From contig JASHOC010000235.1 of the NCBI GenBank assembly GCA_030041305.1, forward strand, positions 1 to 64,000: DNA of 64,000 nucleotides, in the 5' to 3' direction. Below, piece by piece: positions 42,504-46,719 of this stretch; the first letter of the stretch is position 1; each line of letters opens with the position of its first letter. The notes beneath the pieces were generated by a model, which was not told the DNA's origin, did not search any database, and saw nothing but the letters and a program-made list of their open reading frames with translations. Both the position numbers and the translations under genes were made by a program. This DNA is from Acidobacteriaceae bacterium (lineage in GTDB: Bacteria > Acidobacteriota > Terriglobia > Terriglobales > Acidobacteriaceae).

Positions 42504-42903
42504 TCGCCCCTAGCACAGCGACCGTGGCATCCCGCCGTGGTCAAATTTTAATAGGCTTGACGTGACCGACTCGGTCGCGCGGATACTTCCCTAGATGGCA
42601 AATTTATGATAAATAAGCAAGTTTCCGGGATTGTTTACCTGACACAAATTGGCCAGTTCGGTGACGATGGTCACTGTGACAGGGCGGCGCATGGCATATC
42701 GTGAGACGGTCGTGAGGTGGGATCGTGCATCCTACGAATGTGGGATTTTCCGGCCCGGTTTCGGGGATTTCGGATTTCCCGTGACAAATGATATGAAACG
42801 ATGATAGGGTTGCTCGCACTTGAAGAAAAGGCGTTTGGGGCCGATTCACCTCGTGCGAGCTAGGAGAAACGCAATGAGCGAGCAGCCGACTGATCTTAAT
42901 GGG

Positions 42904-43509
42904 CTACCGCTGGAATACGAGAGACACTACGGAACTGCCAGGCGGGATTTGGACGTCGCGAACCTCATCAATAATCCCGCAGCCAGCGGCAAATGCAGCG
43001 TCTTTGGTTTGGGCTTCCAAGAAGAGCTTGGAAATGTCTTCTCTGGGGAGCCGAGTTCTTTCCTCAATCACAGCGCCGATACGTTTTTGGTCGCTAGCGA
43101 TCCCATCTAGTCGTTCGCGGAGGAACTTCTCTTCTAGGCGCGTTTGCGCTGGAACGTCGAAGCCCACTCCGTGAAACATGAACGTGGAATGCGGACAGGC
43201 AAAGCGATGCTGTCCCGCAAGAAAAACCGCGTTGCCTATGGAGTCCACATTCCCGACGTTATGGGTAGTGAGTTCAACTGGCAACGCGCGCATGACGTTG
43301 TAGATGTTCATGCCGTGCATAACCGAACCCCCAGGAGTGGATAGCATCAAGTAGATTTGCTTCACTCCCTGATTGACGAGGTTGGTTACGGTAGCAATGA
43401 GGCTTTCAGTTGTGTGGGGAACGATTTCCGCCGAGAAGCAGACATAAACCAAATTCGGCGGGGCCTGCATAGCTGGGTTAGGTCTGAACATGACTTGGGG
43501 TTGGTTCAT
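42904..43509 (-). CDS. ClpP-like (SDH-family) protease
   Basis: IYLMLSTPGGSVMHGMNIYNVMRALPVELTTHNVGNVDSIGNAVFLAG...PHSTFMFHGV: GxxxS and H motifs. Confidence 0.85.
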   Translation of the reverse strand: MNQPQVMFRPNPAMQAPPNLVYVCFSAEIVPHTTESLIATVTNLVNQGVKQIYLMLSTPGGSVMHGMNIYNVMRALPVELTTHNVGNVDSIGNAVFLAGQHRFACPHSTFMFHGVGFDVPAQTRLEEKFLRERLDGIASDQKRIGAVIEERTRLPREDISKLFLEAQTKDAAFAAGCGIIDEVRDVQIPPGSSVVSLVFQR

Positions 43510-43571
43510 AAGGTTTGTTCGTCCTGTGCGTGCTTTGTCGGCACGCGCATGTTTAACGGCATTCGACGGAG

Positions 43572-43662
43572 CGGAGAGATAGGGAGTCGAACCCCTAGCG
43601 CTGACACGCTAGCCGTAGGAGCTTATAAGGCCCCTGCCAGAACCTTCCGGCGGTATCTCTCC
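43572..43662 (-). tRNA. Candidate 9/3 allo-tRNA, long variable arm, anticodon UAU, G73, no encoded CCA
   Basis: GGAGAGATA/TATCTCTCC (9 bp); D stem GCC/GGC; GGGGC-CTTATAA-GCTCC; variable stem CTAGCG/CGCTAG; GGG-TTCGACT-CCC. Confidence 0.82.
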
Positions 43663-43666
43663 AAAT

Positions 43667-43690
43667 CGCCCCCGTCGCAAGCCGGGGGCG
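43667..43690. other. Perfect 8-bp GC hairpin immediately 5' of the tRNA
   Basis: CGCCCCCG-N8-CGGGGGCG. Confidence 0.7.
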
Positions 43691-43720
43691 GCCAGAGTGG
43701 GTGGTGCGATTGCTCACCAT

Positions 43721-43763
43721 GACCCGCGTCGCGCGTCTCTTTGCCGGGGATGCGGCGCGGGTC
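43721..43763. other. Long GC-rich inverted repeat upstream of the tRNA
   Basis: GACCCGCGTCGC / GCGGCGCGGGTC, 11 of 12 pairs. Confidence 0.6.
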
Positions 43764-44788: not shown

Positions 44789-45520
44789 TTACAGCCGCCC
44801 AGGCAGCCGGGGCAGCCGAATCGGATTCTTCGCGCTGGTGGGGTCGCTCAAGTAGAGGTTGTGCACGGCCCAGGGCGTGACACAAGCGGCGTCGGCGATA
44901 AGCCAGACCTCAGCGAGGCGGTGATGACCACGCCGCCCCAGATAGCGCGCGGCGAAGTAATCGAGGGTGACAGCGCCGCCCTCGACTGCAACGAGCGCCG
45001 GGGTGTGATCCGCTACCGCCTCTGGCAGTAGCAACTCGTGGCCGTAATGGTGAGTGATAAACCAGCGGGTGGAGTAGGTATCGAGCCCCCGCGCCCCGGC
45101 ATCGCCAGCGGACAGCGCCCAATCGATCTTTGGGAGGTGATGAGGTTGGGGTGCGGGTGGAAGCGTCTGACCATGCATGACCTTGACGGAGAGCACCGCG
45201 AACAGGAGCAGGCAGGCGCGCACCAGCGGATAGATCGGCCAAAAGGCTTTCTTCGGGCGTGGCCTGTACTTCACCATGGGGCGGCAGAGTGGGTGCTTGA
45301 TGACCGGTGCGGTAAGGCTGAGCGGGCAGAGATACGACTGCCCGTTCTGCTCGTAGAGGGTCCACTTCGTGGGGTTATCACGCCCGGCATCGATCAGCTT
45401 CGTCAGGACGATGCCCTTGGAGCGCCATTCCAGTTGTGGGGCTTCGCCGTTGCTGCCCCAACAAAGGATGTAGTCCGCGTTAAGGTCGATGATTTGCTGG
45501 ATGAGGTGAGCGTTGGTCAT
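44789..45520 (-). CDS. Hypothetical protein translationally coupled to the integrase
   Basis: MTNAHLIQQIIDLNADYILCWGSNGEAPQ...; ATGA overlap with the integrase stop; one TM segment. Confidence 0.6.
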   Translation of the reverse strand: MTNAHLIQQIIDLNADYILCWGSNGEAPQLEWRSKGIVLTKLIDAGRDNPTKWTLYEQNGQSYLCPLSLTAPVIKHPLCRPMVKYRPRPKKAFWPIYPLVRACLLLFAVLSVKVMHGQTLPPAPQPHHLPKIDWALSAGDAGARGLDTYSTRWFITHHYGHELLLPEAVADHTPALVAVEGGAVTLDYFAARYLGRRGHHRLAEVWLIADAACVTPWAVHNLYLSDPTSAKNPIRLPRLPGRL

Positions 45521-46719
45521 GCCGCCACCCCCGTCGCCGTCGTCGCCGCGAAGGTCCGGTTGACCATCTGCTGGGCTTGCGCTCCACGCGCGGGCCGGAG
45601 GTAGCGCATCGTGCTGCGCAGGTCCTTTGGGGAATGCCCAAGCCAGCGGCCCACGGTCGGGACATCGACCCCGGCCCAAAGATGCCAAGTGGCAAAAGTG
45701 GCACGGAATTCATGGAGCCAGAAGTCGTCGGGGTTGAGCCCGGCGTCCTTCGCCCGCGCCTTCAACAGCGTCAGGAAATCATCCTTTGGCTGACCTTCCG
45801 GGGTGGGAAAGAGCAACGGGCAGCCCGGCAGGGCATTCGCCCTGGCAGCCCGGAGGGATGCAGCGAGACAAGCCGGAATCGGAATCTGGCGGCCCTTGTA
45901 CCTTTTCGGTGTCCAGTTGTATGCAGTCTTGGCTGAGACCTTGACCGTGGGCTCAGCGCCGAGGTCCAAGTCTGACCAATAGGTATGCACGACCTCTTGG
46001 AAGCGCATCCCGGTCATCAGAAAAAACTCGAAGTAAAGCCGCTCCTGGGCGTCGCATACGGCGAACAGCTTGTCGAGGTCTCCCTGCTCGTAAACCTCCG
46101 GGTCTTCTTCGGTGAACTTCGGCCAGTCCTGCGGCTTGACTCCGGTCTGGACCCCGACCGCCTTCCAAAAAATCATCAGGTTCAGGAATTGGTTGGCCAC
46201 CGTGCGGTCACCAACGCCCTTCTCGCGACGGACATAGGCGGTGAACTTGAGCATGTCCGACCGGTCGATTTCCTCAAGGAAACTCTTCTTGCAGGACTCC
46301 TCGAAGTAGCGGAGGGCAATGGAGTAAGCCGCGTACGTGGACTTCTTTTTGGTAAGCTTGATTTCGTCCAGGTAGGCTGTAACGGCGTCGGAGATGGGCC
46401 GCCCGGTCGGGACGGTGGCGGCGACGGGCTGCGCGAGGGCAATACCCTCGGCCTCGGCTTGGAGGCGAAGTTCAAGCCTGCGCTTTGCGGCGGTAGCCTC
46501 CTCCGGCTCGGTGGAGATCCGCTGCAAGACGCGCCTCTTGCCGTTGCCGGGGTTATAGGTGAGGTAGAAGACCGCAGGGTCGAAATGATGGGGCTCGCCG
46601 TCGAGGATCGCGCAGGACTTTTTGAGTTTGCCGTTTTTGGCGATGACGGGTTTGAGGTAGGTGCGCTTCCCATTTGGAAGACGGACCCAGACGTATAAGG
46701 CCACTTTCGGGGGTTTCAT
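45517..46719 (-). CDS. Tyrosine recombinase / phage integrase
   Basis: FEFFLMTGMRFQEV, LHEFRATFATWHLWAGVDVPTVGRWLGHS, TMRYL (R..HxxR..H..Y). Confidence 0.93.
   Translation of the reverse strand: MKPPKVALYVWVRLPNGKRTYLKPVIAKNGKLKKSCAILDGEPHHFDPAVFYLTYNPGNGKRRVLQRISTEPEEATAAKRRLELRLQAEAEGIALAQPVAATVPTGRPISDAVTAYLDEIKLTKKKSTYAAYSIALRYFEESCKKSFLEEIDRSDMLKFTAYVRREKGVGDRTVANQFLNLMIFWKAVGVQTGVKPQDWPKFTEEDPEVYEQGDLDKLFAVCDAQERLYFEFFLMTGMRFQEVVHTYWSDLDLGAEPTVKVSAKTAYNWTPKRYKGRQIPIPACLAASLRAARANALPGCPLLFPTPEGQPKDDFLTLLKARAKDAGLNPDDFWLHEFRATFATWHLWAGVDVPTVGRWLGHSPKDLRSTMRYLRPARGAQAQQMVNRTFAATTATGVAA

Follow-up and report, generated by a model that had tools for sequence, protein, structure and literature searches.

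The closest described counterparts of the tRNA analysed here are the allo-tRNAs of Acidobacteria (Mukai et al. 2017, as covered in the review PMC7609411), which likewise split a 12-bp acceptor branch as 9/3 and carry a long variable arm, G73 and a non-Ser anticodon. In that review UAU is a leading anticodon among the 8/4 allo-tRNAs, whereas the 9/3 members have Arg, Leu and ochre anticodons and not UAU as in our case. There, one UAU allo-tRNA pseudogene is described as overlapping an ORF related to transposons, and a connection with transposable elements was suggested; unlike the present analysis, the review reports no element anatomy, target gene or codon-tRNA matching. The RNA fold itself was already known, while a target or purpose of such tRNAs had been lacking.

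Known IS1595 (ISXO2-like) sequences have a DDE transposase, inverted repeats and passengers placed after the transposase, all of which recur in the elements described below. These differ in that a tRNA gene recurs as the passenger and that the codon it reads is abundant in the transposase gene. Phages with suppressor tRNAs and recoded genes are selfish elements whose own tRNA decodes their own genes in a non-standard manner; there a stop codon is affected, whereas here it would be a sense codon, the element is a transposon with a single gene, and the code of the host seems to stay as it is. The nematode nev-tRNA-Ile(UAU) (PMC4300185) is also a tRNA with a V-arm and anticodon UAU that is charged with an amino acid other than Ile, as we predict for our tRNA, but it takes Leu in vitro, is eukaryotic and not mobile and has no matched target genes. 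Neither IS1595 elements that carry a tRNA nor transposases with recoded AUA turned up in our search of the literature, which mostly did not reach subscription journals. We propose, at a probability of roughly 0.7, that the tRNA found in the window (the whole 64-kb stretch of DNA that was analysed) is carried as a passenger by an IS1595/ISXO2-like transposon of Acidobacteriota and provides the transposase of that transposon with a decoding rule of its own.

Identity and fold of the UAU tRNA

ARAGORN detects a single tRNA in the window, which it names tRNA-Ile(tat) and places at 43571-43662(-). Sequence, strand and coordinates of this tRNA in the first-pass annotation (Table 1) are exact, and the genome has no second copy of comparable similarity. 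Its top match in Rfam is tRNA-Sec (45.8 bits, E 6e-7), an identity that was rejected since the score lies below the cut-off of 47, the branch is of 12 and not 13 bp and the anticodon is UAU and not UCA. A canonical tRNA-Ile(UAU) was also rejected, because the tRNA is of class II and a 7/5 class I fold would need a mismatch. The acceptor is paired over 9 bp, the acceptor/T branch has the 12 bp of allo-tRNAs as 9/3 or 8/4, and the long variable arm and G73 are of the SerRS type, in agreement with the Ser-type features first ascribed to it.

The preference for 9/3 over other folds was justified as far as 7/5 is concerned; the 8/4 fold is also possible on the window sequence taken alone, because the fourth T-stem pair is G.U. 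Since 9/3 is the only pairing open to its three closest relatives with UAU, we assigned this fold to the window tRNA, which is confirmed as a real 9/3 tRNA. A pattern scan over one genome per species revealed a clear 9/3 tRNA with UAU in two more species, represented by an Acidobacteriaceae MAG (L071) and an Acidobacteria MAG (L076). Covariance models built first from three and then from ten sequences both gave additional homologues in the class and family, of which only matches checked by hand were used because canonical tRNAs crowd the matches near 45-48 bits. Pairing possible only as 9/3 is seen in L160/L071, L064/L076 and L157 (all UAU) and in L154 and L156 (UAA). In an alignment of nine distinct homologues, which was fitted to the model and takes in 8/4 members, 96.3% of the pair cells form, as against 71% after shuffling and 44-54% after sliding. 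Changes on both sides occur at 20 of the 28 pairs, including acceptor pairs 8 and 9, the two extra pairs of the fold that had been claimed.

The true 9/3 members have the anticodons UAU, UAA or GCA, and those of the larger 8/4 group (UAU, GCG, GUC, GCC and others) agree with what the review gives from Mukai et al. 2017 (PMC7609411). UAU tRNAs of the relatives are of the Ser type and class II, mostly with G73, in 9/3, 8/4 or 7/5 folds. The 7/5 fold, a third fold with the same anticodon, was observed in class II UAU tRNAs with G73 in L072, L073, L081, L082, L083 and L085, and an IS1595 transposase adjoins the tRNA in four of these six. Viral contigs were rejected as a source of UAU tRNAs, the pattern matches there being other tRNA types.

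The transposon remnant and related elements

The tRNA had been seen as free-standing, a view that has to be given up. When neighbouring ORFs were clustered, a single partner dominated: an ISXO2-like transposase (IS1595 family), present at 11 loci. Inverted repeats close to GGAAGATTATGCACTTGACACA enclose transposase and tRNA in L160, L064, L157, L164 and L168, and an 8-bp target duplication, as known from IS1595 sequences, is present at the ends of L064. The cargo of these elements varies and comprises DUF5343-like proteins, a trypsin-like protease, toxin-antitoxin-like genes and unknown ORFs. A second element (L213, on contig C351) is present in the window's own genome.

Judged from its sequence, the window tRNA sits in a truncated remnant of such an IS1595/ISXO2-like transposon. 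One terminal inverted repeat is present; it is the best repeat match in the 64 kb by a wide margin, lies beyond a ClpP-like gene and is identical to the L157 repeat at 18 of 19 bases. The ClpP-like gene begins 62 nt past the tRNA and is probably cargo, because it is located between tRNA and inverted repeat. The best solved-structure relative of its product is 9uxt. We rejected this gene as a fixed partner of the tRNA: its homologues are rare and unlinked in the genus and cargo differs between elements, so it is best regarded as variable cargo. Among the PADLOC defence families no match was found for the ClpP-like protein, the integrase upstream or two neighbouring ORFs. Two leader hairpins precede the tRNA, of which hairpin 2 shows a compensatory change of CC/GG to TT/AA in L157, while hairpin 1 occurs at the same position with covarying stems in L157, L064 and L160.

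Table 1. Coordinates of the tRNA and surrounding features in the window.
Feature	Position	Strand	Basis
Right terminal inverted repeat CCGGGATTGTTTACCTGACACAAAT, IS1595-type transposon	42625..42649	+	score 48, against 38 for the runner-up
ClpP-like serine protease, 201 aa, putative cargo gene	42904..43509	-	PF00574 E 1.4e-19
9/3 allo-tRNA, anticodon UAU, class II, G73, without encoded CCA	43572..43662	-	ARAGORN, Rfam, homologue folding
Leader hairpin 2, CGCCCCCG-GCTTGCGA-CGGGGGCG, directly 5' of tRNA	43667..43690	-	compensatory change in L157
Leader hairpin 1, GACCCGCG..CGCGGGTC, then ATGGTGAGC	43712..43763	-	conserved in relatives
Tyrosine recombinase gene, upstream of tRNA	45517..46719	-	PF00589

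Neither a transposase nor a left repeat was found in the window, and tblastn gave no upstream remnant of the transposase. This incomplete state, together with the truncated tRNA pieces seen in relatives (L033 and L046), would suit a pseudogene, or a relic of a mobile element in decay, that no longer has a function. We consider this very unlikely for the tRNA, whose stems, loops and G73 are all intact and which shows compensatory changes across homologues; decay of the window copy is likely, but it leaves the family unexplained. The tyrosine recombinase encoded upstream may belong to another mobile element, through which the left half of the transposon was lost. This integrase was rejected as the carrier of the tRNA, as no repeat of the tRNA end lies near it and the IS1595 repeat fits better.

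Several arrangements at related loci were observed besides. A conserved tiny ORF starting with ATG ATA (MIRRV..ARR), together with a hairpin, separates the DUF5343-like gene from the tRNA in L064 (9080-9205) and L160 (7893-8020). The 8/4 UAU allo-tRNAs of L161, L162 and L165 adjoin not an IS1595 transposase but putative DUF4065/Panacea-like and ImmA/IrrE-like ORFs, named by the look of their sequences. L154, L155, L158 and L159 have 9/3 allo-tRNAs with UAA or GCA anticodon and encoded CCA, next to a transposase with a SWIM zinc finger and a small zinc-ribbon ORF in convergent orientation. The same codon rule as described below was considered for the SWIM-finger transposases with GCA tRNAs and rejected, since UGC codons there are at conserved Cys. 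A second irregular tRNA (ochre-like, ACT, TGC) is located just upstream of the allo-tRNA at L155:8087-8163, L156:7993-8069, L158:8106-8181 and L212:3711-3785, comparable to the polycistrons mentioned in PMC7609411. One IS1595 element has, next to its UAU tRNA, another allo-tRNA-like gene whose anticodon is the ochre type UUA (L283:1365-1450).

AUA codons in the transposase genes

Transposase genes of the 17 elements with a UAU tRNA, counted with L207 and L216 whose tRNAs came from a looser search, contain 71 AUA codons (2-6 per gene; 13.0/1000), compared to 23 (median 0; 1.6/1000) in 44 genes of elements without it. GC3 was similar between the groups as these genes were first divided. The enrichment has a Mann-Whitney p of 4e-10, with gene counts that overstate independence because the division by tRNA follows clades in the tree of transposases. 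Roughly four switches of tRNA type are all that this tree requires, so the elements are not independent, and an independent-pairs test is without power. Elements with a UAA tRNA have transposases rich in UUA, and transposases without such a tRNA show an excess of neither codon. At alignment columns 84 and 460, where most UAU elements have AUA, all four members of the UAA clade have UUA, one of them being cut before its tRNA.

The nine alignment columns with at least three AUA codons hold 68 AUA and a single AUC/AUU (1.4%), whereas for all other codons tested the admixture of synonyms is at least 15%. These columns stay unmixed over branch lengths that suffice for free mixing of the other Ile codons, evidence that does not rest on the independence of gene counts. 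An alternative is that AUA is read as Ile and is retained because a rare codon makes the ribosome pause or keeps expression low, with some other role for the tRNA, for example as a regulatory RNA. AUA and UUA are both rare, and the leader hairpins beside the tRNA suggest regulation at the RNA level. We nevertheless regard pausing as improbable, since it explains neither the near absence of exchange between AUA and AUC/AUU nor the appearance of UUA in place of AUA exactly in the UAA-tRNA clade, and would leave Ile out of place at AUA in this family.

The residue meant by AUA was evaluated by a codon-by-codon inference modelled on Codetta (PMC8629427), for which transposases without the tRNA supplied the residue profiles. 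In the UAU group the common codons infer their standard residues except AUA, which does not infer Ile, and TTA (9 sites), a narrow miss with Met over Leu; in control transposases AUA infers Ile. The Ile log-odds are -0.70 at AUA and +1.14 at AUC/AUU, and none of 100000 permutations was as low. Residues facing AUA in the homologues are mostly Ser, Ala, Thr or other non-aliphatic residues such as Lys and Glu, and the ILVM fraction is 0.21 at AUA sites as against 0.75 at AUC/AUU sites. For instance, VS[AUA]KHL aligns with VSAKHL, DAK[AUA]ETL with DAKSGTL, NH[AUA] with NHS and LPL[AUA]xWF with LPL[T/S/E/N/Q]. This departure from Ile was found in the relatives and in L213 of the same genome.

A further set of 40 transposase loci from a class-wide search was held out and scored with the first profiles. 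All eight loci with a UAU tRNA have 3-7 AUA codons each, and AUA is again not inferred as Ile (best Thr, Ala, Pro), whereas in the 32 loci without it AUA infers Val/Ile. In this set Ile scores above Ser at AUA. VS[AUA]KHL is present in six of the eight, and L282, the sole further locus to have it, is cut at a contig end. Exceptions are L270, L276 and L277, which have AUA at column 84 and in which no tRNA was found; L286, listed with them, is cut at a contig end.

Proposed decoding of AUA by the element's own tRNA

Taken at the level of sequence, the data exclude ordinary Ile at AUA better than they prove Ser. In the near-clade profile Ser, Ala and Thr rank top and Ile near the bottom; Ser ranks lower with distant profiles, and those from controls alone place Gln, Thr and Ala above it. 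Ser is probably the amino acid inserted, because the class II arm, G73 and A3-U70 (not the G3-U70 of Ala) agree with the near-clade profile, and Ala or Thr may also fit the columns taken alone. The first suggestion of Ser at AUA codons thus gains support and a target, namely the AUA codons in the transposase genes of tRNA-bearing transposons, with charging by SerRS as its predicted part.

Charging would be directed by the class II variable arm, G73, G1-C72, G2-C71 and A3-U70. Silvibacterium 9/3 and 8/4 allo-tRNAs put Ser in proteins in E. coli, while a related Edaphobacter UAU allo-tRNA (8/4) did not work in translation there (PMC7609411), a failure that counts against recoding of AUA to Ser and in favour of the pausing alternative.

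The charged tRNA would then read AUA as Ser in competition with the host tRNA-Ile2. In cargo genes AUA is Ile-like: in the ClpP-like gene it aligns with a conserved Met beside the catalytic Ser, and in the trypsin-like gene of L160 the AUA codons align partly to Ile. The host genome has tilS, so AUA would be read in two ways at once; this and the Ile-like cargo count against the proposal, and any recoding would be competitive rather than a change of the host code.

Control of overproduction is common in insertion sequences, and the tRNA could conversely act as a brake on dosage. AUA would then be Ile in the active transposase and a Ser-charged tRNA would misread it and inactivate the enzyme, so that more element copies give less active transposase and AUA is kept because it is the target. 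AUA is indeed conserved as a codon and matched to the anticodon, and the tRNA-Ile2 machinery is present in the host. However, an obligatory Ile would not occupy columns where homologues mostly have Ser, Ala, Thr, Lys or Glu, and Ser at such positions should do no harm, which makes a brake of this kind unlikely.

According to the decoding rule proposed here, insertion of Ser at AUA would yield the correct transposase, and transposition would depend on the element's own tRNA. This dependence could confine transposition to cells or moments in which the tRNA is expressed. As a guess, the window tRNA could still work for further copies elsewhere in its genome, for example L213 on C351. It also seems fairly probable that these elements represent transposons with a sense-codon rule of their own, in which a Ser-type tRNA (9/3, 8/4 or 7/5; UAU or UAA) is paired with AUA or UUA where Ser or some other small residue is wanted, and the correct enzyme is made only where that tRNA is expressed.

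If true, transposition would be controlled in a new way, by private decoding of a sense codon for the transposase of the element itself, and tRNA and codon would form a natural missense-suppression pair. Because the target positions are named codon by codon, the purpose of allo-tRNAs would therefore become directly testable.
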